A stretch of 64,000 bases of DNA from Nicotiana tabacum (lineage: Eukaryota; Streptophyta; Magnoliopsida; Solanales; Solanaceae): positions 65,725,990 through 65,789,989 of the forward strand of contig NC_134095.1 of NCBI RefSeq assembly GCF_000715075.1, in the 5' to 3' direction. A model generated the notes under the pieces. It was not told the DNA's origin, did no database searches, and saw nothing but the letters and a program-made list of their open reading frames with translations. Of the stretch, positions 6,886-49,401 are shown piece after piece (positions within the stretch are counted from its first letter, which is position 1; each line of letters starts with the position of its first letter). The position numbers were made by a program, and so were the translations under genes.

Positions 6886-6953
6886 GGCCAAACTTCGATC
6901 TTCGAGTTCCCTACATATCCCAGGTTTTACAGGAATCAGGCCATGTATAGTTC
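6886..6953 (-). ncRNA. Conserved nested-pseudoknot RNA motif, copy B2 (before 3' LTR)
   Basis: Minus-strand helices: P1 TACAT 6947-6943 with ATGTA 6916-6912; P2 GGCC 6942-6939 with GGCC 6889-6886; P3 AT/CC (6936-6935, 6933-6932) with GGAT 6920-6917, one T bulged; P4 AACT 6908-6905 with AGTT 6894-6891. One T (6890) separates P4 and P2'. GAA precedes the P1 region, and TGATTC joins P2 to P3, as in the other four copies. P1 carries a 2-base insertion relative to them. It ends about 90 bases from the 3' LTR, as copy C3 does in element C. No family is assigned. Confidence 0.7.
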
Positions 6954-7159
6954 TGGATTCACCCGCGGAGTATGCCGATGAAATTATTGCAAGAACGGAC
7001 ACGAGATGCGCAAGCGGTTACGGTGAGTGGTTAAAGATCGGGATGGTTGGAGTGAATTGGAGTGAGATTGATCCTGCTAGGATAGCGGTTGCTAACTAGT
7101 TACCTACAGATAAAAGATGCCACAAACGTATTTGCAAAATTTTAAACATGATGCAAATT

Positions 7160-7430
7160 CCCTTCGGGCCATGGTGGTTGTCTTTGGACAATTAAAGATG
7201 ACGTCCTTGGACCATGAAGTCCTGGGCCATGAATTGTTTAGTGAGGGATTCGCAGGTCATGAAATGATGTTCTCGGACCATGAAAATGGTGCCTCCGAAC
7301 CATGACGCCTTTGAATAACGATATGCAAATTCGAGAGATCCTTAGGCCATGGAATGGTGTCTTCCGGCTATGAGGATGATGCCTTGAGACTATGATGCCT
7401 TTGGATAGATTGGTGATGTTTCAGCCTATG
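7160..7430 (-). repeat. Degenerate CCATGA-containing repeats in element B 3' UTR
   Basis: GGACCATGA, GGGCCATGA, GGTCATGA and similar 8-9-mers recur at roughly 30-base intervals. The repeat is too decayed to give a firm unit. It lies between motif B2 and the hairpin array. Confidence 0.5.
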
Positions 7431-7481
7431 ATATGCAATAATATGATGTTATCAAGACAACGCTTATTCTTGTGAAATGGA

Positions 7482-8072
7482 GGGCAGAGCTTAGCCCGAT
7501 TGAGAAGCAAATAGATAGTATTAGCAATAGAGCAATATTTGTGCAAAGAGGGACAATGCTTAGTCCCATGCGAATGTGGATGCAAGAATTAGCCTCATGC
7601 AAGTATGAAGGCAAGTATTAGCCTCATGCAGATAGGGAGTCAAGGATTAGACTCACGCAAGTGCGGAGGCAGGATTAGACTCACGGAGTCAAGGACTAGA
7701 CTCATGTAAATGGGGAGGCAAGGATTATCCTCATGCAAATGAGGAGGCAAGGATTAGCCCCATAGAGTCAAGGAATAGACTCGTGTAAACAGGGAGGCAA
7801 AGATTAGCCTCATGGAGTCAAGGATTAGACTCATGCAAATGGACAGACAAGGATTAGCCTCATGGAGTCAAGGATTAGACTCATGCAAATGGGGAGGCAA
7901 GTATTTGTCTCATGCAAGTATGAAGTCAAGGATTAGACTCATGCAAGTATGGAGGCAAGGATTAGCCTCGTGCAAGTAGGGAGGCAGGGATTAGCCTCAT
8001 GCAAGTATGGAGTCAAGGATTAGACTCATGCAAGTAGGGAGTCAAGGATTAGACACATGCAAGTAGGGAGCA
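7482..8072 (-). repeat. Tandem array of short hairpins in element B 3' UTR
   Basis: About 20 units of roughly 22-35 bases. Each has two complementary 4-5 base arms around an 8-base loop close to AAGGATTA. Arms occur as GAGTC/GACTC, GAGGC/GCCTC, GGGAC/GTCCC (7550-7567) and GGGC/GCCC (7482-7497). Most units keep arms that match each other although arm sequence changes between units; about a third carry one mismatch. The array is in the 3' UTR between integrase and LTR, the region known in Tat/Ogre elements to collect satellite-like repeats. Confidence 0.8.
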
Positions 8073-8455
8073 AGTAGTGAGTAAAAGTAGCATGTGTCTT
8101 AGTTAGAGATGTATATTCGGTGTCTGATAGCTTGATTGATAGTAATCGTGCTACGTGCATATATCTGCGGATGTCATCGTTACGTCAATCGTGCATGCAT
8201 TCAAAGAAAAATTGTAAGTTCTGTGACGGGAGGTTGATTCGTGCTTTTGTCGGATGGCTTTGCCCTGCTTCATTCTGAAAGCCCCTTCGAGCCCCCTAGG
8301 AAGCACCTGATTATTATGGAAATAGAACGTTTGCGAAAAATATGCAATTATTGATAAGAAATAGAGTTTTTTTGGGAACATATTGATATATCAAGTAATT
8401 TTGATGAACTAGTGGCTGTAACACGTCTTAAAGGCATTGCAACTATCTCACATTG

Positions 8456-8711: not shown

Positions 8712-8775
8712 TGACCGAACCCATAAGGCTGCCTACGTATCCCCTCTTAAACGGGAATCAAGTCAAGCGTAATTC
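8712..8775 (-). ncRNA. Conserved nested-pseudoknot RNA motif, copy B1 (after pol)
   Basis: Minus-strand helices: P1 TTACG 8772-8768 with CGTAG 8737-8733 (one T.G); P2 TGACT 8765-8761 with GGTCA 8716-8712 (one T.G); P3 AT/CCC (8758-8757, 8755-8753) with GGGAT 8743-8739; P4 AGCC 8730-8727 with GGTT 8721-8718 (one G.T). C8717 is the only base between P4 and P2'. GAA and TGATTC are conserved. It begins about 30 bases after the pol stop at 8806. Confidence 0.75.
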
Positions 8776-8805: not shown

Positions 8806-11800
8806 CTAAGCATAGTATCTCATGACTGCATCTGAATTGATCGGTTTTGGACAGACTTCTCCGTCCATTTATGCAAGTATGAGTGCTCCACTTGTTAGTA
8901 CTCTATGAATCATGTACGGTCCTTTCCAGTTGGGAGAGAATTTCCTTTTGGCTTCATCTTGGTGTGGGAAGATTTTCTTCAATACCAGCTGCCCTGGTGC
9001 GAACTATCTTAGTTTGACTCTTTTGTTGAAAGCTCTGGACATTCTGTTCTGATAAAGTTGGTCGTGACACACTGCGTTCATCCTCTTTCCATCAATAATG
9101 GCCAATTGTTCATAGGGACTCCTTATCTACTCTGCATCGCTAAGTTCAGCTTCTTGTATGATTCTTAAAGAAGGAATTTCCACCTCAGCTGGGATGACAG
9201 CCTCGGTACCATAGACCAACATGTAGGGAGTTGCCCCGGTTGACGTGCAAACCGTAGTGCAGTATCCTAACAGAGCAAAGGGTAACTTCTCATGCCATTA
9301 CTTGTGGTTTTCTACCATTTTCCTTAATATCTTTTTTATGTTCTTGTTTGCGGCTTCTACGACTCCATTAATCTGAGGTTTGTAGGTTGTAGAATTCTTG
9401 TGCTTGATTTTGAAAGTTTCACACATAACTTTCATCAGATCATTGTTGAGATTGGCGGCATTATCAGCAATAATGGACTCGGGAACTCCAAATCGACAAA
9501 CAATACGATCCTTGACAAAATATGCGACGACTTTCTTAGTTACAGCTTTGTAAGATGCAACCTCTACCCAGTTTGTGAAGTAATCAATGGCTACCAGAAT
9601 GAACCTATGTCCATTTGAGGCAGTGGGCTCAATCGGACCAATAACATCCATTCCCCAAGCGGCGAATGACCAAGGTGAGCTTGTTACATTGAGCTCGTTT
9701 GGCGGCACTTTTATCATATCGGCCTGTACTTGACATTGAAAGCATTTTCAGACATACTGAATGCAATCCGTCTCCATGGTCATCCAAAAGAAACCTGCCA
9801 TGAGTATCTTCTTGGCCAAGACGAAACCATTCATGTGCGGACCACAGGTCCCAGCATGCACATCCTCAAGTATCTTAGAAGCCTCCTACGCATTGACACA
9901 TCTTAGCAATCCCAGATCCGGGGTTCTTCTATACAGGTTTCCTCCACTGTGGAAGAAGTGATTTGATAATCTCCGGAGCGTGCGTTTCTGAGTGTGATTT
10001 GCATGCTCCGGGTATGCTCCTTTTGATAAGTATTCTTTGATGTCATGGAACCATGGCTTTCCATCTGCTTCTTCCTCGACATTAGCACAATAGGCCGGAT
10101 AATTATGGATCCTCACCGGAATGGGATCAATATAGTTCTTATCTGGATGTTGTATCATTGATGATAAAGTAGCTAATGTGTCGGCAAAATCATTCTGAAT
10201 TCTGGGCACATGTCGGAATTCTATCTTTGTGAACCTCTTTCTCAATTCCTGCGCATGGTGCAGATATGGCAATATCTTGGAATTCTTGGTGGCCCACACT
10301 CCTTGTACTTGGTGCATGAGAAAATCTGAATCGTTGATCCCCAACAGCTCCTGAATGTTCATGTCGACTGCCATGTTGATCCCTAGTATATAGGCTTCAT
10401 ATTCGGCTATGTTGTTAGTGCAGGGAAATCCGGTTTAGCAGATACCGGATAATGTTGACCCGTTTCTGATACCAAAACTGCTCAAATACCTACTCCTTTG
10501 AAATTTGCGGCTCCGTCAAAGAACATCCTCCAACCGTCATATGCTTCGGTAATATCTTCCCCTACAAATGACACTTCTTAATCAGGAAAATATGTTTTCA
10601 AGGGTTTGTATTCTCCTCCCACTGAATTTTCAGCAAGGTGATCGGACAACGCTTGTCTTTTGACCGCCTTTTGAGTTACATAGACGATATCGAACTCACT
10701 CAGTAGTATCTGCCATTTAACCAACTTCCCAGTGGGCATGGGTTTCTGAAATATGCACTTTAGTGGATCCATTCTGGATATGAGGTAGGTAGTGTAGGCA
10801 CAGAAGTAATGCCTCAATTTCTGGGCTATCTAGGTCAAAGCACAACAAGTGCGTTCACAGAGAATACCGTGCTTCATAAGGTGTAAACTTCTTACTCAAG
10901 TAATATATGACTTGCTCTTTTCTTCCTGTCACGTCATGTTATCCCAAAATGCATGCAAAGGCTCCATCCAATACAAATAGATAGAGTAGCAAAGGTCGCC
11001 CTGGTTCTGGCGGGACCAGAACTGGTGGTGTGGACAGGTACTCCTTAATCTTGTCAAAAGCTTTATGACAATCCTCGGTCCAACTTGTCTCGGCATCTTT
11101 CCTCAGCATCTTGAAGATGGGTTCACATATGACCGTGGACTGTGCTATGAAGCGACTGATGTAGTTGAGACGCCCTAGGAAGCTCATCACATCCTTTTTG
11201 CACTTGGGAGGTGGTAACTCTTGAATAGCTTTGACATTATATGGATCCAGCTCGATCCCTCGGCGACTGATAATGAATCCCAGTAATTTTCCTGCGGGAA
11301 CCCCGAATGCACACTTTGCGGGTTTCAGTTTCAAGTTGTACCTCCTTAGCCTGTCAAAGAACTTTCTCAAGTATGCTATTTGATCTGCTGCCCTTTTGGA
11401 TTTGATAATAACGTCATCCACATACACCTCTATTTCTTTATGGATCATATCATGGAAGATAGTTGTCATGGCTCTCATGTAAGTGGCCCCAGCATTTTTC
11501 AGACCGAATGGCATCATCTTGTAACAGTATACACCCCAAGGTGTAATAAAAGCTATCTTCTCTACATCTTCTTCATCCATCCAAATCTAGTGATAGCCCG
11601 AAAAGTAATCCACAATGGATTGGAGTTCATGCTTGGCGCAATTGTCAATTAAAATATGTATATTTGGCAGTGGGAAGTCGTCTTTGGGACTTGCTCTATT
11701 TAAATCCCGATAGTCAACACATACCCTAACCTTCCCGTCTTTCTTTTGAACTGGCATGATGTTAGCTAACTAGGTTGGATATTCAACCATCCTGAGAACC

Positions 11801-16124: not shown

Positions 16125-17707
16125 CTATTTGGTCCCAGAAGGACCTTCCCCAGATTCGATCTTCCGGACTTCATCATACAGATCTCCCAGCTCATGCAGT
16201 CCCAGTAGTAAGTAGGCTCTGGCCAAATGTCCTCCCTCAGCTCCTTCAGCGTTCTGGCAATTTTCAATCCTCTTTATGACTTTGCCCTCCAGCTCCACTA
16301 TTCCTCGCTCCAGATATTCCAGTTTCCTGTTGGAAGTGATTGCCATCTCTTTCCACTCCTGGATCAACTTCACGTTCCTCTCATGTATTTCCCGATGCTC
16401 ATTCTCAGAGTCGTGGACCCTCTTGCGCAGCCTGTTGTACTTGACTTGAGCTTTAGCTTCCTCATTTATGATTTTGTTCCCTCGACTGACCTCTGGTGTC
16501 ACCATTCCTTTCAGATTGTCCTCCAACCATGCCGGGTAGAGAGGCTCGTACCCTGCATGATATCTATCTGGCTCAACGGTTCTTTTCTCCACAATGATTT
16601 TGCAGTGCCACATGAGTGGAGCTTGGCACTTGTAAGGGACGTCGTCATCTTGGAAGTCTGCCCTGAAATGACTCATTTTGACAACCCTTGGTACAACCTG
16701 AATTCTACCTGCTTGCCTCACAACTCGCATAAGGACATATGGATATATCCCTCTCAACCCGATCAGCACCAAGTGCGGAGCATCCCTGGACCCGATAATA
16801 AACTCATCTGTTGGGAACCATTCAACCATCCACTGCACCTGTTCCTCGGTCAGATTGTCGAAGAACTCTACCCATTCTCTGGCGCTTTCCGGCTGAGTAA
16901 ATCTGTCTGGAATGTAAGTCATCTTCTTAGGGTGATGGAAGGCAATGTGGTCGTTCCAAGCCCTTCGCAAAAATTCTTGACGATAGCGACCCTTTTGGAG
17001 ATGCTCCAGCAACCATAACTGTAGCACCTAATTACAACCCTCGAAATGTTTGACCCCTCTTTGACAGTGCTCCAGAGCCCTGTAGATGTCAGCTATGATC
17101 ATGGGGACTATAATGTATGTCTGTCCATTAATCCCTTCCATCAGAGTCTTAGCGACCATGGCCAACCTAGTGTGAATTCTTCCCTTTTTCATTGGGAACA
17201 CTATCAGGCCTAGAAATCACACAATGAATACAAACACTCTGTGGTAGATGTGACCCAGTGAAGTGAGGGAGATCTCATCATGGTAAGTGCGGAAAGACTT
17301 GCTATGGACATACCTCTCGTATAGGTATTCGAAAGGTTTGTATGAATCCTTCAAGCACACTAGGTTGACATTCTTTTTCAGCCCCATCATCTTCAAAAAT
17401 CTCCTGCCCGTACGGTTTTCTGGTACCAAAAGCCTAGGACTGTCCCAAGTCAACCCCACAAGTCCTATTTCCTCTAGAAGCGGTGTCATATCTATGTCAC
17501 CAAAACAGAACACAACTCTTTCACTATCCCAGAATAAGGTGGCAGCCTCGATGAATTTTTTGTTTGGTTCAATATCTAGCAAGGAAGGCAAGTTACCTAG
17601 GTACTTTTTCATATGCTTCTTGTCATTTGAGGAAAGTTCCTCCACCAATCTAGCAGCAATGGTGGGATTTTGCTAACCATGCTGAATCTGGGGACCTCAT
17701 GCCTCAT
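16125..17707 (-). pseudogene. Element B ORF1 (Ogre extra ORF, broken)
   Basis: The extra ORF upstream of gag that characterises Ogre elements; its function is unknown. Two open stretches in one frame (17648-17217 and 17027-16125) are split by TGA 17217-17219 and TAG 17028-17030. An ATG at 17707 opens another frame whose peptide ends in DWW where C has WW; a small indel near 17643 shifts it. Landmarks shared with C: YLGNL, a DMTPLLEEIG block, IYRAL and a C-terminal coiled coil. The TPxxEEI block resembles the plant mobile domain (PF10536 as I recall). No frame is intact. Confidence 0.8.
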
Positions 17708-31180: not shown

Positions 31181-31247
31181 ATTAGTGGATTGATCCTGGC
31201 CATTCATCTCACTTGATCGGACGGACAATACCAATCCACCCCACCCC

Positions 31248-31870: not shown

Positions 31871-32843
31871 TGTTTGATTTCAAAAAAAAAATCCAAATCC
31901 AAGTTGAGTTCGAGTCGGAATAAAATTGAAGATTCAAAGGTATTTTTTCTATTTATTTTGTGTATTATACGTGTATTTTTGTGTTTGTTTTAGTCTGTGT
32001 AATTTTCCCATTTTTTATCGTCATACTGTCTCCTACCCGTCTACTTGATTTTAAATGTGAATTGTTTCTGTTGGTTGTGCTTAGTTACAATGTGTGTAAT
32101 CGACTCAATTAAGTTCGTCGATTAGTTATATTATGAATTCTCATTCATAATAATACTGATTGAAACAATCTGTTTCTATTTTTATGTACTGTTTGTTGAC
32201 AGATATTGTAGATAATCATTTTTAACTAATACTCGTCAGTTAAATCATCCTGGTTTATATGAATCTGTCAAAATAAGTGTTGTACATATGTTATTGTCTG
32301 AACATTAATGTTTCAGGGCATTGTCAATTTTGACAATGATCCTATGTGTGTTTGATCTTGGTTTAATGTTAAGTCCAGTCTGAATTATTATGATAATTTC
32401 AGTAATATGTTGTTATGATGTTAGTTCTGAATTCAGTGTAATATTGCTGTAATGTCAAGTTTGAATTCAAGTTTACAAAAGTTGGTCAAATACAATTGTG
32501 TTAGGAGGTTAATAGGATTGGTTATAGCTGTAAATCAGAAGGATAATTAAGTTTATACAGATTTTAGAATCTGTTTTGCAGTAGGTTCTGATTTTTCAGT
32601 AATAACATCAGGATTTCAAGGGCATTTCTGGGAATGAAACAGTAAAAACAGGGTGTTAGTGCTAGTGTATTATAATGTAATGTTAGTGGCTATAGTTTAA
32701 GATAATAATGGGGAACAAGGGATAATGGGGCTGCTGAAAATCAGGTTAGGATCATATATAGTATTAAAAAGAAGTTTGTAATGGAACTTTCTGTTTTAAA
32801 AGAAGAAAGGGGTCCAAGAAGCATTAAAAAATATAGAACCAGC

Positions 32844-32859
32844 CCTGTATAAATACAGG
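32844..32859. promoter_or_regulatory. Second TATA-like site inside an inverted repeat, element C LTR
   Basis: CCTGTAT AA ATACAGG, 7-bp arms around two bases, extended outward by CCAGC/GCTGG with one extra base. It contains TATAAATA at 32848-32855. It is about 1.6 kb downstream of the first TATA. The same site is at 51835-51850. Whether it is a promoter or just an inverted repeat is open. Confidence 0.4.
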
Positions 32860-35182: not shown

Positions 35183-35888
35183 TAATATTGTTATTATAAC
35201 CCAGAACCATTGGTTCAGGGTTTAAAGAATTCGAGCTTAAAATATCTGTTTTTATTGGCTTTATTTACTATATGATTTTCAACTGTTTATATGCTAATAT
35301 GCTAAATGTTTTTTTTTACCGCTTTAATATTATTTGAATTGTGAATATATACAACTGCTACGAAACCCCTTCTTTCTGAGTCTTCTGAATTTATGGTGTA
35401 CACGTGCGCGTGACCCACCTTTCTGTTAAAGTCATACCAAATAAGACGGAGTTGGGACAAGTAACTAGGCCGGGCAGACTTTCGTGCTCCCGGTACGTTG
35501 CCCCCGCTTCGGCTCAAACTGTCCGTTTGGGTAAGCCAGGTTTAGAACAATCAACCTAAGGTTTTACACTTAGAATAACTCAGCCATGTACCGGATCCCT
35601 AGTAGGAACGAATATTTGCATCATATGCATTTGGCCTTGGAGACTCAACACAGGGGTTGGGTCTGTCTAGGACAGGTGAACCCAAAAAAATTAAAAGACC
35701 ATCATGATGCATCCTACTTGTTACTTGTGCATTCATTTGCCTCGAACATGCTTGTTGACCAGCTTAAATAAAATCATGGTAAGAAGAAAGGAATAAAATG
35801 GGTTGTTTTAAAAATTTCGAAAATAATTTTTAGTAAAAATTTCCCAAAATGAATTTTGACTTTATTAAAATTAAATTTCAGATACAAA
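35183..35888 (+). other. Element C leader before ORF1
   Basis: Untranslated leader of about 700 bases. A 61-codon ORF (35586-35771) matches nothing I know. TTTCAG lies 8-13 bases before the ORF1 ATG and could be a splice acceptor, but no donor is evident. Confidence 0.6.
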
Positions 35889-37960
35889 ATGAGCACCACA
35901 CAAAGCCCCTCATCCACAAGTATAGAGGAATTTCTATGTCAGCTTCAAATGTGGTGGTATGATTTAGGCGAAGACGGTCAAAAATGGGTCGTCAAGCATT
36001 TGGGAAATCTCACGGACATTATGAAAGTTGAACCTCGTGATGATCTGATTACGGCGTTGGTAACTTTCTGGGATCCTGTTCACAATGTTTTTCGTTTCTC
36101 TGACTTCGAGCTTACTCCTACATTTGAGGAGATAGCTGGCTATGCTGGTTTTGACGGAAGTTTAAGAAATCAAAGCTTGATATTCACAAAGGCTCCTTCC
36201 GTACATCGATTCTTCGGTCTTCTGAACATCAGCAGTCAAATCAGGAAAAGCAATGTCATCAATGGATGTTGTTCTTTCAACTTTTTGTATTCAAGGTTCG
36301 GAAAGACAGATGGGTCCGAAATTCATGAGAAAGGCCTTACTAATAATCAAAACAAAGACACTTGGCAGATGCACCGTCGATTTGCTTTCATGGTGGTTTT
36401 TCTAGGAGTGATGGTCTTCCCAAATAAAGAGCGAACAATTGATATTCGCACCGCAAAAGTTGTGCAAATCCTCACCACTAAAGAAAATCACACCCTTGTC
36501 CCCATCATTCTATCAGATATTTATCGGGCTTTGACTTTATGCAAATCAGGAGCAAAAGTCTTCGAAGGATGCAAAATTTTGTTGCAAATGTGGGTGATTG
36601 AACATCTCCAACAACAGCCCAAGATCATACAGTATGGGTCCAACAAAGCTAATTGCATTGAGAGCTATGAGGAAAGAACAAAAAATTATCAGGCTCCAGA
36701 AGGGATAGAAGCATGGGTATCTCATCTAAAGGCTTTAACGGCAAATCAAATTGAATGGACTCTGGGATGGCTCCCGATGAGAGAAGCAATACATATGTCA
36801 ACCTCAAATAGTTATCTGCTACTATTGGGATTGAGAAGCATTCAGCCGTATGCACCACTAAGAGTCCTAAGGCAGCTAGGGAGATATCAAATAGTTCCTG
36901 ATGATGAAGATTTGAGTATGTAAGTAATCGAATTACACCCAGAAGCCACTATTCCCGAAGCTCTACTTCAGCAGATGTGGAATGGGTGCCGATACTTGAA
37001 AAGCGATACTCAAGTCCTAGACGCTACAAAGGGTGAGATAAATCCTGGATATGCAAGGTGGTTCGAAAAACGGTCTCGCGTGGATGATGTACCAGAACCT
37101 GAGCTAAAAAGGCCAACAAAAAGACCCCATTTTCAAAACTTCAATGATAAAATCCAAGAGCGGTTGATCTGGGGAGAAAAAGAAAAAGGGTACAAAGCAA
37201 CTATCCATGCCCTAAAAGAAAATCTAAGAAGCCTCAGTTTGGAGAAAGATTTGCAAGCACAAGAAGCCGAAGGCGAGAAAAAGAGTCTAGCTTGTGAGAA
37301 TGAAAATCTTCATGCTCGATTCCAAAAATGAAAAGAGTTTCTGAAACGCCAAAGAGGAGCTGGAAGGATCAAAAAACCATCGCCAATCTCTTTGAAAGAA
37401 TGCAGGATTATGATTCCATTCTTGCGGAAAACGAAAGGGCATTGAGCAAAGCAAAAGAAAGGATCCAACGATTAAACGAAGAAGCCAGATCTAACAAGGA
37501 ACGCCAAGATAGGCAATCCGAAAAAGACAAGGCACAATTCAAGGAGGAAAAAGACTATTGGATGCGATCAGAAGACCAGCTTCGTGCACAACTAGAAGAG
37601 GCAAGAAGATGCAACAAAGAACATCAACAAGCAGACCTCGACAGGGAAAGATAGCAAGCAAGATTAGAGCAGGCCAAACTCCGAGCTCTGTTAGAATCAG
37701 CTCTAGATCGTGAAAACCATGTCAGAGATATAGCCACCACTCGTCAGCAGCAATTGCAAGACCAAGACCAACGTCTCCAAGGTTTCAGGGCACAAATCCA
37801 CGACCTGGCAGTCTTCACATCTCAAAGTTATGTAAACTGCCAAGGAATGGATTATGAAAGGTTTACAGAGCATGCGCCCACTTTTGCTCGTCATCTAGCA
37901 ATGGAGTTGGAAAGGATGTATCGAACGTTGGGAGGCCATCCGGGTCAAGCCCCACATTGA
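35889..37960 (+). pseudogene. Element C ORF1 (Ogre extra ORF, broken)
   Basis: Extra ORF upstream of gag; role unknown. ATG 35889 is chosen because the peptide from it (MSTTQS) precedes a WWYDL block matching B. Residues about 60-110 carry FELTPTFEEIAGYAGF, like the plant mobile domain core; further on are IYRAL and a long Lys/Glu-rich coiled coil (about 37130-37750). Breaks: TAA 36921-36923 in frame, TGA 37329-37331, then one or more frameshifts before 37390, TAG 37652-37654. The frame then stays open to TGA 37958-37960. An intact product would be roughly 690 residues. The same protein, more decayed, is at 16125-17707 in B. Confidence 0.85.
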
Positions 37961-38463: not shown

Positions 38464-41400
38464 ATGTCTATCCCAGATGTTGACACAGGTATGGAAATAG
38501 AAGAGATGGATGTCGGGAAAATGAAAGAAGAGATGTTTAAGCTCAAGCAGCAAATGGCTGAGATGTACCAAGCTTGGTCTATAGGACAGTTACCCCCATC
38601 TTACCCAAATAACCCTGCTCCATCAAAGACCCAAACTCAGGATAATATCACCGCTGAATTATCCCCAAGTTTCCCCATTTATCAGCACTACCGAGGCACC
38701 ACCTCTTAGACACCACAGTCTCCACCTCCAAAACCAGTTCCGTACTTTCCTCCACCTATGACTCCTGTTTTCGTAGCACCTCCCCCTGCTACCTTTCACA
38801 AATCTCCTAGTGAGCCTACATTTCAGGCCCAAGACAACCAATATTACCCCCCGGAGCCCACCTTCAAAGCCTCCGAAATCAATTCAACTGCTCCTCGATT
38901 TGATCTCCCAACCGAAATTGACAAGCCAGCCAAAAATGCTGAACAAGAAGAGATGTTCAGGAAGGTCAAAAGTCTAGAACAATTGTTCCGAGACATGCGA
39001 GGATTAGGTGGGCAAGTCAGTGTAGCATACAAAGATTTATGCTTATTCCCTAATATATAATTACCAGTTGGCTTCAAGATGCCCAAATTTGACCTATACA
39101 GCGGGCACGGCGACCCAGTAGCCCACTTAAGGGGTTTCTGTAGCAAGATGCGAGGAGCTAGGGGAAAGGATGAATTATTGATGGCTTACTTTAGTCAAAG
39201 TCTAAGCGGATCAGCTTTGGAGTGGTATACACGCCAGGACCATGGAAGATGGTACACCTGGGATGACCTGGCACAGGCATTCGCATACCATTTCCAATAC
39301 AATCTAGAAATCATCCCAGATCGATTATCTTTGACCAAATTTGAGAAGAAACACAATGAAAGTTTCAGAGAGTATGGTTTTCGGTGGAGAGAACAGGCAG
39401 CAAGAGTGGATCCTCCTATGAAGGAGAGCGAAATGGTAGACTACTTCCTTCAAGCCTTGGAACCAACTTACTATGCCCACTTGGTTTCAGCGGTTGGAAA
39501 ATCATTCAACGAGGTAGTGAAGATGGGAGGTATGGTGGAAGAAGGCCTTAAGACAAATAAAATCATGAGCTATTCAGCAATTAAGGCAACTACTCAAGCT
39601 ATTCAAGGCGGGGTAGGAGGAATCGGAAGAAAGAAGAGGGAGGAAGCAGCCGTAGTTGATTCAGGAATTTGGCCGGGACCCAGAGGTTCACCGCTTTACT
39701 ATAATCAACAACGACCTCGCCAATCAGCTTACCACCATGATTCATCCCAACACTACTATCACCCTTCAGAGCCTCATTTTGCCATTAACCATGCTCAAGC
39801 ATACAATCAGCCACCTGTTCACACCAATTGGCATGCTCCTGTCACACCAAATACTTACCCACGAGCCTATCCCGGACCAGGTTTCAGGCCTAGGCCAGCA
39901 TTCAGGGGAGAAAGAGAACAGAAAAAGAAAACTTACACTCCATTGGGAGAGTCTTACACTAGCCTGTTCCACAGGCTGAGACAGTTGGATATGCTGAGAC
40001 CAATACAATCCAAGCTACCCAATCCTCCTCCAAAGAATCTGGATTACACCATTAGCTGTGAATATTGCTCCGGTGCACCAGGCCATGATACGGAGAAGTG
40101 TTGGCATTTGAAAAATGCAATACAAGAGCTGATTGATACTAATAAAATCGAGGTTCAAACCCCCGAAGCCCCAAATATCAATAGAAATCCAATGCCAGCC
40201 CATCAAGAGGCTAATATGATAGAAATCATACAAGCTGATGGGAAGACAAAGAAGCCGTCACAAACTGTCATGATGATCAAGACTCATGAAACCAAGCCAG
40301 ATAAGCAGTTAATGGAGGAGAAGCCGGTGTCTAAACAGAACAAAAATAGTGACGAACCGTCTATCATAGTCGATGAGGCATCATTGAGCAAAGTTGCCGC
40401 AAAACAAGAAAGGCCGAAAGTGATAGTACCAGGGGTTTCTAACAAACCCATTATATTCGTGGAAGGAGCACGTACAGATCGGGTTATTATTGCACCTGTA
40501 ATCCAGCTGTCGATCATCAACAACAAAGCCATCCCATGGAACTATGAACGGGTGACTGTAATGTACAAGGGCAAAGAAATCAAGGAAAAAGTGTGTGAGG
40601 TGCAAGGCTTGACTCGTTCGGGAAGATGTTTTACTCCCGAAGAGCTGAGAAAAACTAAAAACAATCCAATGCCAACAAAGAAAGCTGTGACGGAAGAAGA
40701 GGCGGAGGAGTTTTTAAGAAAAATGAAACTCCATGATTATTCTGTTGTGGATCAATTAAAGAAGACCCCCGCTCAAATTTCATTATTGTCATTACTGATC
40801 CATTCAGAAGAACACCGTCTGGCATTGATGAAAATCCTGAATGAAGCTCATGTTTCTGAAAAGATCTCTGTAAATCATTTGGGCAAAATAGCCAACAGAA
40901 TCTTTGAGACAAACAGAATTACGTTTGCTGATAATGAATTACCTGTGGAAGGTACTGAGCACAACAGAGCTCTTTACCTCACCGTAAAATGTGAAAACTC
41001 CATAGTAACCCGGGTATTGGTTGACAATGGGTCAAGTGCAAACATATGCCCTCTCTCCACTTTAAACAAATTAAAGATTAAAGAGGAGAGGATCCAGAAG
41101 AATAGTATCTGCGTACGAGGGTTTGACGGTGGAAGCAGAGATTCATTTGGCGACATAGTATTGGAACTAACAATAGGGCCAGTTGAATTCACAATGGAAT
41201 TCCAAGTGTTGGACATAACTGTTTCTTACAACTTGTTGTTGGGTCGACCATGGATCCACGCTGCTAAAGCAGTTCCGTCAACACTACATCAGGCTGTCAA
41301 GTTTGAATGGGATCATCAAGAAGTAGTCGTGTATGGAGAAGAAAGTTTACATGCTCACAGCAGTACCATTGTACCGGTCGAGGGAACAGAAAATGACCAG

Positions 41401-41930
41401 GGACCATGGGTATACCAAGTAACCGACACGGTGTCGATAGAGAAAATTCCAGAGGGGAAATATCTTCCAAATTCAAAGATATCCTCTGCATCAGTCATGG
41501 TAGCTTATGAAATGTTAAAGAATGGCTTTATACCCGGCAAAGGTTTGAGTTTATCTTTGCAAGGAATTATACAACCAGTATCTCTCCCCGAGAACTGGGG
41601 AACATTCGGTTTGGGGTTCATACCCATTGCCAATGACGTGATAAGGGCCAGGAAGCTGAAACACCAAACATGGGTTCTTCCAAAACCAGTCCCACATCTG
41701 TCAAAGTCTTTTGTCAAGACCGGCGCTAAAAATCGCCCGATAACAACAATTCCTAAATCCCGGGTCAATCCTGAAGAGAAATTAATTGAAAGGTTCAAGA
41801 AATTGTTTAGTAATGTGAACATGTTGGAAAGCGGAGAAGGGTGTAGCAACGCAGAAGTTCAATTCGTTGGGCCAGAAACAAAGCTCAATAATTGGAAAGC
41901 CACTCCTCTCCCAATTCGAAAGGAGTCTTG
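38464..41930 (+). pseudogene. gag-pro: Element C gag-pro (two in-frame stops)
   Basis: Capsid and aspartic protease in a single frame. ATG 38464 starts a coiled-coil segment, then a Pro-rich linker. The Tat-type capsid begins about 39070 (PKFDLYSGHGDP). A variant zinc knuckle C-x2-C-x5-H-x4-C starts at 40057, and the protease site VDNGSSAN has its Asp codon at 41023. TAG 38707-38709 and TAA 39058-39060 break the N-terminal third. From 39079 on, 951 codons are open. The frame ends in TAG 41932-41934, but that lies inside an intron beginning at 41931. Without the stops this would encode polyprotein for particle assembly and maturation. Confidence 0.9.
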
Positions 41931-42113
41931 GTAGTTTATTTTGATTTTCTTTCAGTTTGTTTGGGTTATTTCAAGGTTGTAATCCCAAAGTTTATCTTAC
42001 AGTTGGTTTGAAGTGTGCAAAACCTTGTTATCTTTCATTATCCAATAAAAAGCAGTTTCCTTTTTATTATCATTCCTAATAGCTTTCTTTTCTTTTTCTT
42101 CTTTTCTGTACAG
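41931..42113 (+). other. Intron between protease and RT of element C (183 bp)
   Basis: The donor GT is at 41931-41932. The acceptor CTGTACAG ends at 42113 after a long T/C tract. A branch-like TCCTAAT lies near 42074. Removal joins the protease frame (phase 2) to the frame that runs through ATG 42139 into RT, with no stop between. Ogre elements are known to have a partly spliced intron here. Leaving it in ends translation after protease; splicing gives the full polyprotein, so splicing would set the gag-pro to pol ratio. Confidence 0.8.
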
Positions 42114-45100
42114 TTCCTTTTACGCTGGCTCTAGTGATATGGCATGCATGAGGAATCCTCAGCCCAGTCTTAAAAATCAATCTGGTTCCAAAGTAATAAT
42201 TCAAGAAATATATTGTGATTATGAATCAGAATATGATGAAGATGAGGTTTTTGAAGAGATTAGTAAAGAGTTAATTCACTTTGAGGAAAAAATCAAACCT
42301 AACTTGAGTGATACCGAAGACATCAATATAGGGGACACGAGTAATGTCCGGGAAACTAAAATAAGTGTCCATCTCGAACCAAAGATCCGAGAGGAGTTAA
42401 TTAAAGCACTCATAGAATTCAAAGATGTTTTTGCATGGTCGTATGATGACATGCCGGGCTTGAGCATTGATTTAGTGGTCCACAAATTGCCCACCGATCC
42501 AATAATACCTCCTGTCAAGCAGAGGCTGAGAAAATTCAAGCCTGACATGAGTGTGAGAATTAAGGAAGAAATCACCAAACAATTGGAAGCAAAGGTCATT
42601 CGAGTTACTCGATATCCTGTTTGGTTGGCTAATATCGTTCCTGTACCAAAGAAAGACGGCAAAATTAGAGTATGCGTCGACTATCGCAATCTCAACAAGG
42701 CAAGTCCAAAGGATAATTTCCCATTACCCAATATCCATATTTTGATCGACAATTGTGCCAAGCATGATATAGGGTCTTTCGTGGATTGTTATGCCGGGTA
42801 TCATCAAATTCTAATGGATGAAGAAGATGCAGAAAAGACGGCATTCATCACACCATGGGGAACTTATTGCTACCGGGTAATGCCATTCGGTCTGAAGAAC
42901 GCCGGAGCAACCTATATGAGAGCAATGACCACAGTGTTTCATGATATGATACACAAGGAAATTGAGGTATACGTGGATGATGTGATCATAAAATCAAAGC
43001 ATCAGGCCAACCACGTTGGGGATTTGAGGAAGTTCTTCTTAAGACTTCGCAGGTACAACCTCAAGCTTAACCCTGCCAAGTGCGCATTTGGAGTTCCATC
43101 TGGAAAGTTGCTGGGATTCATAGTCAGTCGACGAGGCATCGAACTAGACCCATCAAAAATTAAAGCCATCCAAGAACTGCCACCTCCAAAAAACAAAACT
43201 GAAGTAATGAGTTTGTTGGGGAGGTTAAATTATATCAGCAGGTTTATTGCTCAGCTCACAACAACCTGTGAGCCAATTTTCAAATTGTTAAAAAAGGATG
43301 CTGCAGTCAAATGGACCGATGAGTGTCAAGAAGCGTTTGATAAAATAAAAGGGTACTTGTCAAACCCACCCGTGTTGGTCCCGCCAGAGCCATGAAGACC
43401 TTTGATTCTTTACTTGACAGTTTTGGAAAATTCATTTGGTTGTGTATTGGGGCAACATGACCTCACTGGAAGAAAAGAACAGGCCATCTACTACCTTAGC
43501 AAGAAGTTCACAGCTTATGAGGTTAAGTATACTCATCTGGAAAAGACATGTTGCGCCCTAACATGGGTAGCTCAAAAATTGAAACACTATTTGTCATCCT
43601 ACACTACTTACCTCATTTCTCGGTTGGATCCATTGAAATACATTTTTCAAAAGCCTATGCCAACGGGAAGACTTGCAAAGTGGCAGATATTGCTCACGAA
43701 ATTCGACATCATCTATGTGACTCGAACTGCAATGAAGGCTCAAGCACTGGCCGATCATTTAGCTGAAAACCCGGTCGATGAGGAATATGAGCCGTTGAAG
43801 ACTTATTTTCCTGATGAAGAAACGATGCATATCGACGAGGCGGAACAAATTGAAAAACTTGGCTGGAAACTTTTCTTTGATGGAGCCGCTAACATGAAAG
43901 GAGTCGGAATAGGAGCTGTAATCATTTCTGAAACAGGGCATCACTATCCTGTTACAGCTCAATTACGATTTTATTGCACCAATAATATGGCTGAATATGA
44001 AGCTTGTATTTTGGGGTTAAGGCTAGCTGCAGACATGAGTATCCGAGAAATCTTAGTCATGGGAGATTCAGATCTTTTGGTACATCAAATTCAAGGAGAA
44101 TGGGAAACCCGAGACTTGAAGCTCATCCCATACCGGCAATGTCTACATGATCTTTGTCAGCGGTTTCAATCAGTGGAATTCCAACATATTCCAAGAATCC
44201 ATAATGAGGTTGTCGATGCATTGGCTACCCTAGAATCAATGTTGCACCATCCGGACAAAGCTTATGTAGATCCAATACATATTCAAGTCCACGATCAGCA
44301 CGCTTATTGCAATATGGTTGAAGAAGAAATTGATGGTGAACCATGGTTCCACGACATCAAGGAGTATATCAGAATGGGGATATATCCTGCACAAGCCACA
44401 GGAGATCAAAAGTGGACCATTAGGCGATTGGCAAATGGATTCTTCTTAAGCGGAGGAATTTTGTATAAAAGAACACCAGATCTTGGATTATTAAGATGCA
44501 TAGATGCCAGACAAGCTGCAGCTGTCATGTCTGAAGTACATTCAGGAGTTTGCGGACCCCACATGAGTGGATATGTATTGGCAAAGAAAATCCTCCGAGC
44601 CGGTTACTATTGGCTTACCATGGAGCGAGATTGTATCAGTTTTATGCGCAAGTGTCATCAATGCCAAATACACGGAGATTTGATTCATTCTCCACCATCC
44701 GAGTTGCACACAATGTCGGCACCATGGCCCTTCGTTGCCTGGGGCATGGATGTGATTGGACCAATTGAGCCGGCAGCATCCAATGGACATAGGTTCATTC
44801 TGGTAGCTATTGATTATTTTACCAAATGGGTTGAGGCCAAGGCCTTCAAATCAGTGACCAAGAAAGCTGTGGTCGATTTTGTCCACTCAAATATCATATG
44901 TCGATTCGGAATCCCGAAGGTGATCATCACAGATAACGGTGCTAATCTTAATAGCAACCTAATGAAGGAAGTATGTCAACAGTTTAAGATTACACATCGC
45001 AACTCTACCCCATATCGGCCCAAGGCGAATGGAGCAGTAGAAGCAGCCAACAAAAACATAAAGAAGATACTTCGGAAAATGATAGAAGGATCAAACCAAT

Positions 45101-45591
45101 GGATTGAAAAATTACCATTTGCATTATTGGGATACCGCACTACTGTTCGTACTTCAGTAGGAGCCACTCCTTATTTGTTGGTATATGGCACTGAAGCAGT
45201 AATTCCTGCAGAAATTGAGATTCCTTCCCTTCGGATCATCGCCGAAGCAAAGATTGATGATGTTGAATGGGTCAAAACCCGTCTAGAACAGTTAAACTTG
45301 ATTGATGAAAAATGATTGACCACAGTATGTCATGGTCAATTATATCAAATAAGAATAGAAAGAGCATACAACAAAAAGGTGCGTCCTCAGAAGTTTGAAG
45401 TAGGTCAGCATGTGCTGAAACGTATTCTTCCACATCAGGTTGAAGCAAAGGGCAAATTTGCCCCGAATTGGCAAGGACCATTCATTGTGACCAGAGTATT
45501 ATCGAACGGTGCACTATGCTTAACAGACATTGAAGGCAAATGCATAGATATGGCGATCAATTCTGACGCGGTAAAGAGATATTATGCATAA
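42114..45591 (+). pseudogene. pol: Element C pol: RT, RNase H, second RNase H, integrase (two stops)
   Basis: RT spans about 42500-43100, with the palm Asp in FVDCYAG and YVDD at 42970-42981. A Ty3-type RNase H follows (about 43400-43780). The second RNase H (about 43860-44240) keeps four acidic residues in FFDG, AEYE, GDSD and VVDAL, as in Tat elements. Integrase has the H-H-C-C zinc site (44539-44664), then DVIGP, TDNGAN and VEAANK catalytic acids. TGA 43393-43395 (glycine codon in B) and TGA 45313-45315 (probably CGA to TGA) break the frame; the rest is open to TAA/TAG at 45589-45591. Two single-base changes are the only clear lesions. Confidence 0.9.
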
Positions 45592-46080: not shown

Positions 46081-46260
46081 AAAAATGAGAGAGTCTTATA
46101 GGTGAAAACCCACACGGGCACCATAAGGCGACGAAAGTTGAGAGAAAAGTAAAATGAGAGAGTCTTATTGGTGAAAACCTTCGTAGGCACCATAAGGCGA
46201 AAAGAAAGTGAAGAAGTGAAAAATGAGGAAAATTTATCGATGAAAACTCCTTGAGACAAT
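46081..46260 (+). repeat. Short tandem repeat, about 70-bp unit
   Basis: GAGAGAGTCTTAT, GGTGAAAACC and GCACCATAAGGCGA recur in order about 70 bases apart, two full copies and a decayed third. Confidence 0.7.
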
Positions 46261-46778
46261 TGAAAAGATATTGATTAAAAGACTGGGTTGATTAATCCGA
46301 AATGCATACCCTGATCATTGGTGCCAGTAATTCCAATCAGATAAGTCCTTTATTCCTTTTCCAACAGTCATCCAAAAATTGGATTTTTCTTTTCATTCTA
46401 TAATTGTCGAAATTAGCGTATTTCGCTACTAATAATCTTACTTTCTCCAAGCTTTGAGATAAGTTTTATTCCAAACAAATAAGAAGGAATGTCAAGATAT
46501 ACTACCAAGATTCAAGGGTGCAAGATACAGCCACGAAAGGTGGGAGATAAAATATGGGTGTAAGAAAGGTAAAATCAAAAATGGATCAGCAAAGTCAGAA
46601 GGGGCATATGATTACAGTTAAAAGGTTTTGAAGGAAAACATACAAAGGGGAATCCTATAGTCAAGGATCAATTACAAAGACAAAACAGTCTTTTCAACCA
46701 TTCCGAGGCAATAAAGAGAGACAAAGAGAAGCATCACCATCTGCAAAAATACCACAACAAACCACCCTGCTTTAAACT

Positions 46779-48955
46779 AATGAGGATGAAGAATTGAAGA
46801 AGTCAGGCGTCCACCTGGAGAATGAGGATGAAGAATTAAAGAAGTCAGGCGTCCACCTGGAGAATGAGGATGAAGTTAAAAAGAAGTCAGGCGTCCACCT
46901 GGAGAATGAGGATGAGAGTTAAGAAGAAGTCAGGCGTCCACCTGGAGAATGAGGATGAGAAAAGAAGAAGCCAGGCGTCCACCTGGAGAATGAGGATGAG
47001 AGAATAGAAAAAGTCAGGCGTCCACCTGGAGAATGAGGATGAGAAAAAGAAAAAGTCAAGCGTCCACCTGGAGAATGAGGATGAGAAAAGAAGTCAGGCG
47101 TCCACCTGGAGAATGAGGATGAAGTTAAGAAGAAGTCAGGAGTCCACCTGGAGAATGAGGATGAGAAAAAGAAGTCAGGCGTCCACCTGGAGAATGAGGA
47201 TGAAGTTAAGAAGAAGTCAGGCGTCCACCTGGAGAATGAGGATGAGAAAAGAAGAAGTCAGGCGTCCACCTGGAGAATGAGGATGAGAACAGAAAAAGTC
47301 AAGCGTCCACCTGGAGAATGAGGATGAGAAAAGAAGAAGTCAGGCGTCCACCTGGAGAATGAGGATGAGAACAGAAAAAGTCAGGCGTCCACCTGGAGAA
47401 TGAGGATGAGAAAAGAAGAAGTCAGGCGTCCACCTGGAGAATGAGGATGAGAACATAAAAAGTCAGGCGTCCACCTGGAGAATGAGGATGAGAAAAAGAA
47501 GAAGTCAGGCATCCACCTGGAGAATGAGGATGATTAAAAGAAGTCAGGCGTCCACCTGGAGAATGAGGATGAGAATTAAAGAAGTCAGGCGTCCACCTGG
47601 AGAATGAGGATGAGAAAAAGAAGAAGTCAGGCGTCCACCTGGAGAATGAGGATGAGAAAAAGAAGTCAGGCGTCCACCTGGAGAATGAGGATGAAGAAAA
47701 GAAGAAGTCAGGCGTCCACCTGGAGAATGAGGATGAGAACAGAAAAAGTCAGGCGTCCACCTGGAGAATGAGGATGAGAAAATAAGAAGTCAGGCGTCCA
47801 CCTGGAGAATGAGGATGAGAAAAGAAGAAGTCAGGCGTCCACCTGGAGAATGAGGATGAGAACAGAAAAAGTCAGGCGTCCACCTGGAGAATGAGGATGA
47901 GAAATTAAAGAAGTCAGGCGTCCACCTGGAGAATGAGGATGAAGAAATTGAAGAAGTCAGGCGTCCACCTGGAGAATGAGGATGAGAACAGAAAAAGTCA
48001 GGCGTCCACCTGGAGAATGAGGATGAAGAAATTGAAGAAGTCAGGCGTCCACCTGGAGAATGAGGATGAAGAATTAAAGAAATCAGGCGTCCACCTGGAG
48101 AATGAGGATGAGAATTAAAGAAATCAGGCGTCCACCTGGAGAATGAGGATGAGAAAAAGAAGAAGTCAGGCGTCCACCTGGAGAATGAGGATGAGAAAAG
48201 AAGAAGTCAGGCGTCCACCTGGAGAATGAGGATGAGAAAAGAAGAAGTCAGGCGTCCACCTGGAGAATGAGGATGAGAAAAGAAGAAGTCAGGCGTCCAC
48301 CTGGAGAATGAGGATGAGAAAAGAAGAAGTCAGGCGTCCACCTGGAGAATGAGGATGAGAAAAGAAGAAGTCAGGCGTCCACCTGGAGAATGAGGATGAG
48401 AAAAGAAGAAGTCAGGCGTCCACCTGGAGAATGAGGATGAGAAAAGAAGAAGTCAGGCGTCCACCTGGAGAATGAGGATGAGAAAAGAAGAAGTCAGGCG
48501 TCCACCTGGAGAATGAGGATGAGAAAAGAAGAAGTCAGGCGTCCACCTGGAGAATGAGGATGAAGAGAATTGAAGAAGGCAGGCGTCCACCTGGAGAATG
48601 AGGATGAAGAAATTAAAGAAGTCAGGCGTCCACCTGGAAAATGAGGATAAGAATTAAAGAAGTCAGGCGTCCACCTGGAGAATAAGGATAAGGATTAAAG
48701 AAGTCAGGCGTCCACCTGGAGAATGAGGATGAAGAATTGAAGAAGTCAGGCGTCCACCTGGAGAATGAGGATGAAGAATTAAAGAAGTCAGGCGTCCACC
48801 TGGAGAATGAGGATGAAGTTAAAAAGAAGTCAGGCGTCCACCTGGAGAATGAGGATGAGAAAAAGAAGAAGTCAGTCGTCCACCTGGAAAATGAGGATGA
48901 GAATTAAAGAAGTCAGGCGTCCACCTGGAGAATGAGGACGAAGAAAGAAAAGAAG
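46779..48955 (+). repeat. Satellite-like tandem array in element C 3' UTR (about 50 copies)
   Basis: Units of roughly 38-47 bases. Each carries a near-invariant core GTCAGGCGTCCACCTGGAG and AATGAGGATGA, then an A/G-rich stretch that varies in length. Copies around 48180-48550 are nearly identical with constant spacing, suggesting the newest expansion. The core can fold CAGG/CCTG around six bases. Satellite-like arrays in this position are documented for Tat/Ogre-type elements. Confidence 0.95.
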
Positions 48956-49332
48956 CAGTCAAGGCACCACCTGAGGAACGAGGGAATGCAATTGAAGTGT
49001 TGAAACCAAAAGCCCACTCATATGAGAAAGGAGCACACTTAGAATCAATAAAGCAGAGGAGTCCAACAGAATCCCCAGCAAGAAACAACAAGAGTTCCAA
49101 AAGGAATACGGAATAAGCCAAATGCCCAAGAGTCACCAAGATATCAAGACAACAAGAAACGCAAGGGCATGATCTAGATACGATTTTTATAATTCATGTA
49201 CCATAGTCTAGTTTAGCTTTTTGTATTTCCTTTAAAGTAAGGTGTAATAAGGAGGTCAGCAAGCAGTAAAAACAGCACGAAGCAGCAGTAACATCACAGT
49301 CCCATGGTAGTCCCAGCTACCAAAAAATTCCC

Positions 49333-49401
49333 GAACTACATTGACCTGATTCCTTTATAGCTAAGGATATGTAGGAAACCTTCGAAGCAGAGGTTCGGTC
49401 A
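49333..49401 (+). ncRNA. Conserved nested-pseudoknot RNA motif, copy C3 (before 3' LTR)
   Basis: P1 CTACAT 49336-49341 with ATGTAG 49369-49374 (compensated relative to C2). P2 TGACC 49342-49346 with GGTCA 49397-49401. P3 AT/CCTT (49349-49350, 49352-49355) with AAGGAT 49363-49368. P4 AACCT 49377-49381 with AGGTT 49391-49395. C49396 joins P4 to P2'. It lies about 110 bases before the 3' LTR. Confidence 0.8.

Follow-up and report, generated by a model that had tools for sequence, protein, structure and literature searches.

Nested-pseudoknot RNA with compensated helices is kept in several copies at gene boundaries of tobacco Ogre retrotransposons

Ogre-type LTR retrotransposons of Nicotiana tabacum carry an RNA of about 65 letters, with two to five copies retained per element at gene boundaries and tens of thousands of copies in this one genome. 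The data support a structured, compensated nested-pseudoknot RNA, and its compact nested double pseudoknot is almost certainly a real RNA structure. Four helices are arranged in nested double-pseudoknot order in all five copies of the window, which is the whole analysed DNA stretch of 64,000 nucleotides. The fold runs in the order GAA, P1, P2, UGAU, P3 hairpin, U, P1′, G(C)A, P4 hairpin, YC, and P2′. Covariation is strongest for P2, P3, and P4, the helices for which the evidence holds best.

The hosts of the window copies, elements B and C, are Ogre/Tat retrotransposons, a type marked by a second RNase H between RNase H and integrase and by a plant-mobile-domain ORF1 before gag. Element C, on the plus strand, is delimited by a 5′ LTR (30529..35160) that is 98.7% identical to the 3′ LTR (49515..54152), directly before which the PPT AAAGAGGGGCAGC was identified by eye. 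The element is composed of ORF1 (open part 35856..36923, DUF7745 / plant mobile domain), a gag reading frame (39079..41934, Retrotrans_gag), and pol (42139..45315), two open stretches with reverse transcriptase (RT), RNase H, second RNase H (RVT_3), and integrase. The likeness to pol of element B extends to about 45596, and 204 letters separate the open stretches of gag-prot and RT. Matches within 43402-45315 to RT_RNaseH (2-101), RVT_3 (167-276), and rve (445-540) position the second RNase H (aRH) between RNase H and integrase, the arrangement that defines Ogre (Tat) elements in passages of PMC6317226. The same passages report an ORF1 with a plant mobile domain in 57% of Ogre elements (PMC6317226). 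The match of ORF1 to this domain has an E value of 2.4e-23 in element C.

Element B, on the minus strand, has a 3′ LTR at 2505..6810 (BLAST range; first TG near 6793 by eye), which is about 90-92% identical to the 5′ LTR at 18416..22914 (BLAST range). RT and the second RNase H are located in separate open stretches at 9886..11580. ORF1 of element B (16125..17027) has a weak DUF7745/plant mobile domain match (E 4e-5), below the curated Pfam cut-off. When B and C are compared over their whole length (E<=1e-3), they match in pol, in part of gag, in the LTR-end/PBS region, and between copies B2 and C3 of the RNA (72.5% over 91). With only the 3′ regions compared, on a finer scale, B1-C2 (79% over 67) and B1-C3 (67% over 85) also match, as does the PPT area (E 0.004).

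Copies B1 (8712..8775, minus strand, 45.1 bits) and C2 (45759..45817, plus strand, 42.2 bits) are located after pol and belong to class d. Copies B2 (6885..6953, minus strand, 47.7 bits) and C3 (49333..49401, plus strand, 51.2 bits) precede the PPT and 3′ LTR and belong to class e. The apparent pol stop is about 30 nucleotides from the start of B1 and 167 from that of C2, and the 3′ LTR begins about 91 and 113 nucleotides after the ends of B2 and C3, respectively (all by eye), in agreement with the original prediction of one copy after pol and one before the 3′ LTR in both elements. The additional copy predicted after ORF1 of element C is C1 (38131..38192, plus strand, 46.7 bits), a class c copy between ORF1 and gag. 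The places and helix order anticipated for the five copies were confirmed, and a model built from them recovers all five at 42-51 bits, with the next match in the window at 15 bits (E 0.037).

Two elements of the genome, followed in pieces, have the order LTR - a - ORF1 - c - gag-pol - d - 3′ UTR - e - LTR, in which copies mark the LTR-ORF1, ORF1-gag, pol-3′ UTR, and 3′ UTR-PPT boundaries. Class a lies in the 5′ leader of these two elements, 0.7-0.8 kb after the LTR. Seven 10-kb stretches that cover LTRs and coding regions of element C and two further elements yield no copies with the P2 model other than those at boundaries. The copy number per element is not fixed: element B carries its two 3′ copies alone, and class a is absent from element C. 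The original prediction did not extend to the genomic copy number, to the additional class ahead of ORF1, or to the copies in derivatives lacking ORF1 and pol.

The RNA could be part of a PPT module for plus-strand priming, as the class d and e copies among the matches listed (which comprise 6 of the 29 d and 6 of the 28 e copies) are followed by a PPT or a G-rich run resembling it; two of these runs are one-letter variants. By eye, no PPT-like run follows the class a copies among the matches listed (6 of the 26), and those of class c (5 of the 25) show at most a faint trace after one. Priming by all copies was rejected because the runs follow only classes d and e among the matches listed, and plus-strand priming as the role of the RNA is highly improbable.

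In a manual structural alignment of the five window copies, 90 of 94 cells contain standard pairs, and both-sided changes occur in 11 cells at nine pairs; when the 3′ letters were shuffled 20,000 times, the maximum was 88 paired cells. The alignment was fitted to the fold, and its pairing statistics are therefore favoured. The fraction of shuffles matching the observed pairing is 0.0019 for P1 and P2 alone, 0.007 for the P3 hairpin, and 0/20,000 for the P4 hairpin. In a set of 500 shuffles, none matched four of the five measures, and 79 matched the fifth, further pair types. Helix P1 is less compensated than originally claimed: one pair of its six columns switches, from G-C to A-U, B1 has U.G and B2 has A.G at the outermost pair, C.A stands at the innermost pair of B1 and C1, and pairing of P1 in B2 needs two extra letters (CT) ahead of the arm.

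Chance or an alignment artefact without function would fit two observations. Topology alone is cheap in the window: a letter-free descriptor of the fold is not specific, matching 442 clusters on one strand and 408 on the other, so that the evidence consists of homology and compensation. The pseudoknot-free folding energy is ordinary (z -0.60 to +0.25 for the window's five copies plus one of class a). The genome-wide P2 table and the top covarying pairs presented below make a chance origin hardly credible.

The core pattern has 96,532 matches in the 4.0 Gb genome from which the window derives, compared to 16 for the reversed pattern. The P2 arms GACC/GGTC occur 28,200 times and GGTC/GACC 11,140 times, and the non-pairing combinations 148 and 375 times. 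A further P2 control, GGTT-GGTC, has 8,751 matches; where listed places coincide, these end five letters earlier, and GGTC there is the P4′ arm (GGGTC), so that the count is confounded and does not reflect mispairing. In 108 genome copies, P2 has 43 arm combinations, some not fully paired, which include TGACC/GGTCA, AGGTC/GACCA, CGGTT/AACCT, TGACT/AGTCA, TAACC/GGTTA, and GGGTC/GACCC. P2 is paired in 92% of cells even in an alignment that does not model it.

The top six of 1,891 column pairs of the 108 copies are all pairs of the structure and come from all four helices. Significance was evaluated by a G-test with APC, for which the null consisted of columns simulated along a FastTree tree (60 and 400 simulations). 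In alignment R1, two P3 pairs and one P4 pair have E<0.05, and P2 pairs reach 0.62 and 1.35. In alignment R2, in which P2 is modelled, one pair each of P4, P2, and P3 has E<0.05, followed by a second P3 pair (0.13) and a second P2 pair (0.48). A covariation test of the kind proposed with the original prediction thus placed structure pairs on top and, against the tree-based null, gave significant pairs in P2, P3, and P4. In shuffles of the genome copies two of the five measures are weaker: 3 and 21 of 500 shuffles reached the both-sided changes, and 41 and 4 of 500 reached the further pair types. The 11 covarying pairs comprise 993 Watson-Crick, 70 G.U, 14 A.C, and 11 other cells, as expected for a sense RNA.

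The claim that arms change yet keep pairing therefore stands for P2, P3, and P4, as shown by the top covarying pairs and the P2 table, and is weaker than originally stated for P1. The single covarying pair of P1 ranks sixth of 1,891, and alone is not significant against the tree-based null (E 2.5 in R1 and 3.9 in R2). P1 is mostly invariant, with a CUAC/GUAG core held by sequence. Compensation at its third pair was looked for without success: GUAG is changed to GCAG in 460 copies, and CUAC is kept in 33/33 among the matches listed. The GAA 5′ of P1 is conserved at 95-98%. Motif identity, computed without the 16 letters used to pick the loci, is 0.83-0.87 vs 0.66-0.69 for the flanks (same-class pairs with flank identity of 0.6-0.9), and exceeds the flank in 468/485 same-class pairs. 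Since the paired arms change together, it is the fold itself that evolution preserves.

Eleven loci contain copies of classes a and c but lack an ORF1 match in the interval and an RT or integrase match on that strand. Class d is present in nine of these loci (L049 and L065 lack it on the same strand), and class e in each of the seven loci with a stretch long enough to include it. Two pairs of derivative loci are collinear across the same deletion. The pairing in ten derivative loci is 90.2%, vs 91.7% elsewhere. Because copies persist in loci without ORF1 and pol, the RNA probably acts in cis, independently of these genes, and a cis role on the genomic RNA is likely.

The position of class c between ORF1 and gag and of class a before ORF1 would suit a cistron-handling signal, such as a putative IRES, re-initiation, or cleavage site between ORF1 and gag. 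However, no known gene follows classes d and e, and a and c are present where ORF1 was not detected, in L040 and L043 also without a gag match, which makes this role very unlikely.

Packaging and dimerisation signals are usually located in the 5′ half of a genome. The RNA might be such a signal, with Gag nucleocapsid or ORF1 protein binding the pseudoknots and selecting full-length RNA for virus-like particles. The derivatives, which need only transcription, packaging, and reverse transcription in trans, keep classes a and c, mostly d, and, where reached, e; class a is in the 5′ leader; and P1′ holds the palindrome UACGUA (by eye). Element B, however, lacks a copy in its 5′ half, and we consider this possibility unlikely, though plausible enough to be weighed.

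We hypothesize that the RNA is a conserved cis-acting element of the full-length Ogre transcript, a putative protein docking site that would mark unspliced genomic RNA and steer its fate. The near-invariant patch (GAA, CUAC/GUAG, UGAU) may be read by a protein. CTE and RSV DR are structured cis-acting RNAs near the genome 3′ end, as are RTE, MTE, and RSV RSE, and classes d and e likewise provide a structured cis element near the 3′ LTR. The known folds of these elements differ from that of the Ogre RNA, which also differs in its two to five copies at gene boundaries, a layout atypical of CTE-like elements that speaks against a role in export. MTE holds a pseudoknot, as described in a section of PMC12786077. 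Passages of PMC6317226 report that part of the Ogre transcripts is spliced between gag-prot and RT, and unspliced Ogre RNA therefore has to leave the nucleus. By analogy to CTE, MTE, and RSV DR/RSE, docking might serve splicing-independent nuclear export and cytoplasmic stability first, rather than packaging; we put this forward tentatively, as the likeliest of the readings but one that could well prove wrong.

HDV-like ribozymes have the helix order P1, P2, P3, P1′, P4, P2′, and the Ogre RNA shares this nested double pseudoknot. Retroelements, R2 and other LINEs among them, carry such ribozymes according to passages of PMC7761336. A self-cleaving ribozyme would also be consistent with the C that precedes P2′ in 94/102 distinct copies (T in seven and A in one), but this letter is T in window copies B2 and C2, and J4/2, of one or two letters, lacks the letters after this C. 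A P1.1-like complement is present in 16/102 copies, below the 39.5 expected from shuffled L3, and GAAA occurs as L3. The first P1 letter is C in 93, A in 5, and T in 4 of 102 copies, and never G. The Ogre RNA further differs in UGAU between P2 and P3, in several copies inside one LTR element, at which cleavage would cut the genomic RNA to pieces, and in the conserved GAA 5′ of P1, outside the HDV cleavage product. The doubt about HDV kinship voiced in the original prediction was right, as P1.1, the +1 letter, J4/2, and Rfam all fail, and self-cleavage of this kind is very doubtful.

Rfam has no sense-strand match at the motif (E<=5; window and 12 of 64 loci), including HDV-like, xrRNA, and tRNA-like families, the comparison suggested at the outset. 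A weak snoRNA match (E 2.2) covers the motif on the opposite strand of L076. A tRNA-like structure was rejected, as ARAGORN found no tRNA fold in the window and 12 of 64 loci. A compact pseudoknot upstream of each segment could be an exoribonuclease-resistant RNA, putatively stopping 5′-3′ decay to keep the RNA downstream of each boundary or to make stable sub-RNAs. The helix order differs from known xrRNA folds, no described xrRNA family matches in Rfam, and class e would protect little past the LTR; this role is improbable.

Plant retrozymes also place structured RNA in non-autonomous LTR elements related to Ty3/gypsy; passages of PMC11722881 and PMC7761336 describe hammerhead ribozymes in these small elements. 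The hammerhead lies within the LTRs, whereas the Ogre RNA is a nested pseudoknot outside them. The Ogre passages of the literature mention no structured RNA of this kind, and no description of the Ogre pseudoknot RNA was found in the literature searched, where a match to TACGTAGGCA was a maize actin primer. Viral and prokaryote pattern scans returned 9, 8, 0, and 1 viral and 4 genome stretches, with the rest of the motif in 0/22 by eye, and the viral contigs encode no relative of the RT.

There is a small chance that the RNA represents a new family with its own activity, self-cleaving or nuclease-blocking, that has no more than its helix order in common with HDV and punctuates Ogre gene boundaries. 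If so, a giant RNA would be divided into functional segments, on which non-autonomous relatives depend. The fold would be a second, unrelated use of the HDV-type helix order, and a warning for ribozyme searches based on topology only. The 96,532 pattern matches in 4.0 Gb could rank it with the most abundant structured RNA motifs that a plant genome contains, and it belongs to a family whose cis-acting RNA is hardly mapped, as far as the literature searched shows. Its presence without pol or ORF1 makes the RNA step needed by a plant LTR element directly testable with 65-letter constructs.

All five copies of the original prediction, a nested double-pseudoknot RNA motif of about 65 letters, were found in the window where it had placed them. 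The motif is composed of GAA, the 5′ arms of helices P1 and P2, UGAU, the P3 hairpin, U, the 3′ arm P1′, G, the P4 hairpin, YC, and P2′. In a manual alignment of the five copies, 90 of 94 cells show standard pairing, and changes on both sides of a pair occur in 11 cells at nine pairs; no shuffle reaches their paired count. The topology by itself is not rare in the window, and the pseudoknot-free folding energy of the copies is ordinary. Therefore, the case for the motif rests on homology and compensation. P1′ of the copies bearing ACGTAG contains the palindrome UACGUA, which would permit pairing between two RNA molecules.

The copies belong to two Ogre-like elements (defining features as in PMC6317226). 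Element C, on the plus strand, has LTRs at 30529-35160 and 49515-54152 that are 98.7% identical; the LTRs of element B, on the minus strand, are ~90-92% identical. Each element encodes ORF1 with a DUF7745/plant mobile domain (a weak match in B), gag, and RT, followed in C by RNase H, a second RNase H, and integrase. The RTs are 80% identical over 193 residues. When B and C are compared over their whole length (E≤1e-3), matches occur only between copies B2 and C3, in pol, in part of gag, and in the LTR-end/PBS region; a finer search restricted to the 3′ regions also brings out B1-C2, B1-C3, and the PPT area. Copy B1 is closer to C2 (46.8 bits) than to C3 (35.4), and B2 is closer to C3 (49.7 bits) than to C2 (25.4). 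Because B1 best matches C2 and B2 best matches C3, the arrangement with two sites probably predates the divergence of the B and C families. The predicted bracketing of the 3′ UTR by a copy after pol (class d) and one before the PPT/3′ LTR (class e) holds in both elements; B carries only these two, other B-like loci being known from the 3′ end only, and C lacks the copy before ORF1 (class a).

Between the d and e copies lie tandem arrays with a unit of ~41 letters in C (46.7-48.9 kb) and ~29 letters in B (7.5-8.1 kb). By eye, a short hairpin CCCCA...TGGGG and a PPT-like GGGGCAG follow the class d copies of both elements (8700-8440 minus, 45860-45920 plus), and the PPT-like part is repeated in B, with long inverted repeats GAATTTTGAGGA...TCCTCAAAATTC (minus strand, 8700-8440). 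Splice-acceptor-like ends (ACTAAC or CTAAC, pyrimidines, TAG/CAG) were also seen by eye between ORF1 and gag of both elements (15865-15930 minus, 38355-38381 plus). A direct duplication of ~2.2 kb, 95-98% identical, occupies 24400-28107, and positions 1-1506 resemble 29091-30529 (87-95%), both belonging to another element that nested insertions have probably split.

The window's own 4.0 Gb genome, in which the window lies on contig G000:C16, was the one searched. The core pattern TGATTC-(6 to 20)-GATAYGTAGG, whose 16 fixed letters (one of them Y) miss diverged copies, has 48,966 matches on one strand and 47,566 on the other, with the host element examined for a minority; the reversed pattern has nine and seven. 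Sampling started from 100 listed places, all in C1:0.27-3.13 Mb and thus not random. Fifty-six stretches, including flanks and one window stretch, were fetched, and eight loci from the pattern search complete the set of 64. Covariance model R1, which derives from the five window copies and includes only P1, P3, and P4, was applied to 51 sources (50 of the 64 loci and the window, the 14 omitted overlapping others or being flanks) and gave 108 matches with 102 distinct rows. Model R2, with P2, P3, and P4 but no P1, finds the R1 sites to within a few letters, and one chance hit in the window. Modelling P2 lifts some class a copies (for example L039, L047, and L066, 22.8 to 31.6 bits) and lowers others (L035, 25.9 to 22.2; L049, 26.8 to 26.4; L076, 31.8 to 28.2).

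P2, unmodelled in R1, is paired in 92% of cells. Each of its five pairs shows double changes, though the outermost is unpaired in 31 of 85 cells. The entire structure is paired in 91.3% of R1 cells, falling to 18-42% when partners are slid by one to three columns, and contains 283 double-change cells versus 96 in shuffles, 0 of 500 of which reach 283. P1, unmodelled in R2, is paired in 89%, and 23 copies have A-U in place of G-C at one of its pairs. When the 1,891 column pairs are ranked by a G-test with APC, those at the top (seven with R1, six with R2) are all structure pairs and represent each of the four helices. Under a null simulated on a tree, which was made from the same columns as those tested, P3 and P4 reach significance in R1, and P4, P2, and P3 in R2; P1, taken by itself, does so in neither. 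Eleven covarying pairs comprise 993 Watson-Crick, 70 G·U, 14 A·C, and 11 other cells: the paired strand is the sense RNA.

Genome-wide, a 5′ GACC arm of P2 is combined with 3′ GGTC at 28,200 places and with non-pairing GACC at 148, and 5′ GGTC with GACC at 11,140 and with non-pairing GGTC at 375; by our arithmetic, the odds ratio of this 2 × 2 table is ~5,700. GGTT is combined with AACC at 9,244 places and with GGTC at 8,751, but the P4′ arm confounds the latter count. One tandem array (G000:C2:9781155-9793431) contains six of the 148 GACC-GACC places, with a spacing of ~2,031-2,039 letters, once double, and P2 arms that fit the non-pairing pattern. The claim that arms change while pairing is kept holds best for P2, P3, and P4. 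It fails for the CUAC/GUAG core of P1, whose mutants lack compensation in 33 of 33 cases among the matches listed (460 in all). Therefore, this core is held by sequence. Copies with P1 core mutations are probably decaying.

Among the 102 distinct copies, P1 is preceded by G (99/102), A (97/102), and A (98/100), P4 by A (91/92), and P2′ by C (94/102); conservation of UGAU and the P1′ side is partly imposed by the choice of loci. In same-class pairs with flank identity of 0.6-0.9, compared after removal of the 16 chosen letters, identity is higher in the motif than in its 250-letter flanks for 102 of 103 class a, 73 of 73 class c (ORF1-gag), 102 of 113 class d, and 191 of 196 class e pairs.

Comparison with Rfam 15, which the original prediction proposed, gives no sense-strand match to any family over the motif in the window and 12 of the 64 loci. 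No description of the motif was found in a search of open literature on Ogre (PMC6317226), on plant LTR retrotransposons and HDV-like ribozymes (including PMC7761336), on retroelement RNA more broadly (including PMC12786077, PMC11381356, and PMC11722881), and on Ogre/Tat RNA structures and pseudoknots; subscription literature, mostly outside this search, could contain one. We rate the motif as a new RNA family of an already known wider kind, cis-acting structured RNAs of retroelements.

The positional classes contain 26 (a), 25 (c), 29 (d), and 28 (e) copies, assigned by a simple stem-letter rule with at least one mislabel (a second "e" in L068, which belongs to d by both its letters and its place). 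Five loci (L033, L042, L050, L057, and L069) have ORF1 between a and c, and in L044, L045, L077, L083, and L084 classes c and d flank gag-RT-RH-INT. Seven 10-kb stretches with LTR and coding parts have boundary copies only. Two elements of contig C1, each traced in separate pieces, carry class a ~0.8 kb (first element, ~346-370 kb) and ~0.7 kb past the 5′ LTR; the longest ATG frame of the first leader is 28 codons. L048 and L060 have a second class a copy. Some class a type places also occur in pairs ~220 letters apart (G000:C1:3344805/3345026, 11084962/11085187, and 13011457/13011679).

Eleven loci, noticed through copies clustering within 10 kb and hence no measure of the share of all elements, carry a and c on one strand and lack tblastn matches (E≤1e-8) to ORF1 between them and to RT or RH-INT on that strand: L035, L039, L040, L043, L047, L048, L049, L060, L063, L065, and L066. 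Class d comes next in nine of them and was not found in L049, where an opposite-orientation element follows, and L065; class e is present in all seven with enough reach (L039, L043, L047, L060, L063, L065, and L066). Eight have gag matches (none in L040, L043, and L049), with open frames of ~500 codons in the gag-only L047, L048, and L066; L040 and L043 have no frame above 150 codons. L048 aligns collinearly with L060 across a deletion common to both (84% over 4.7 kb), as L040 does with L043 (83% over 2.8 kb), and parts of L039 recur in L047, and parts of L063 in L066, at 81-85%; at least some derivatives are therefore families rather than isolated accidents. Pairing is kept in 90.2% of cells in ten derivatives (L049 outside the group) versus 91.7% in other copies.

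An explanation of the motif has to cover the sense-strand RNA, the gene-boundary positions, the presence without ORF1 or pol, and a covarying scaffold that bears a patch fixed in sequence. All these points would fit a putative docking site for a protein on the genomic RNA. The deletion derivatives speak for packaging as the step it serves, which we place close behind export or stability. In retroviruses, the DR elements of RSV sit at the 3′ end, and CTE-like and RSV DR elements resemble the Ogre d and e copies in this placement. We favor export or stability as the first choice for the step that the candidate docking site would serve, because the 3′ copies d and e are common to both window elements, in CTE-like or RSV DR fashion, and because Ogre RNA is spliced in part, according to PMC6317226.
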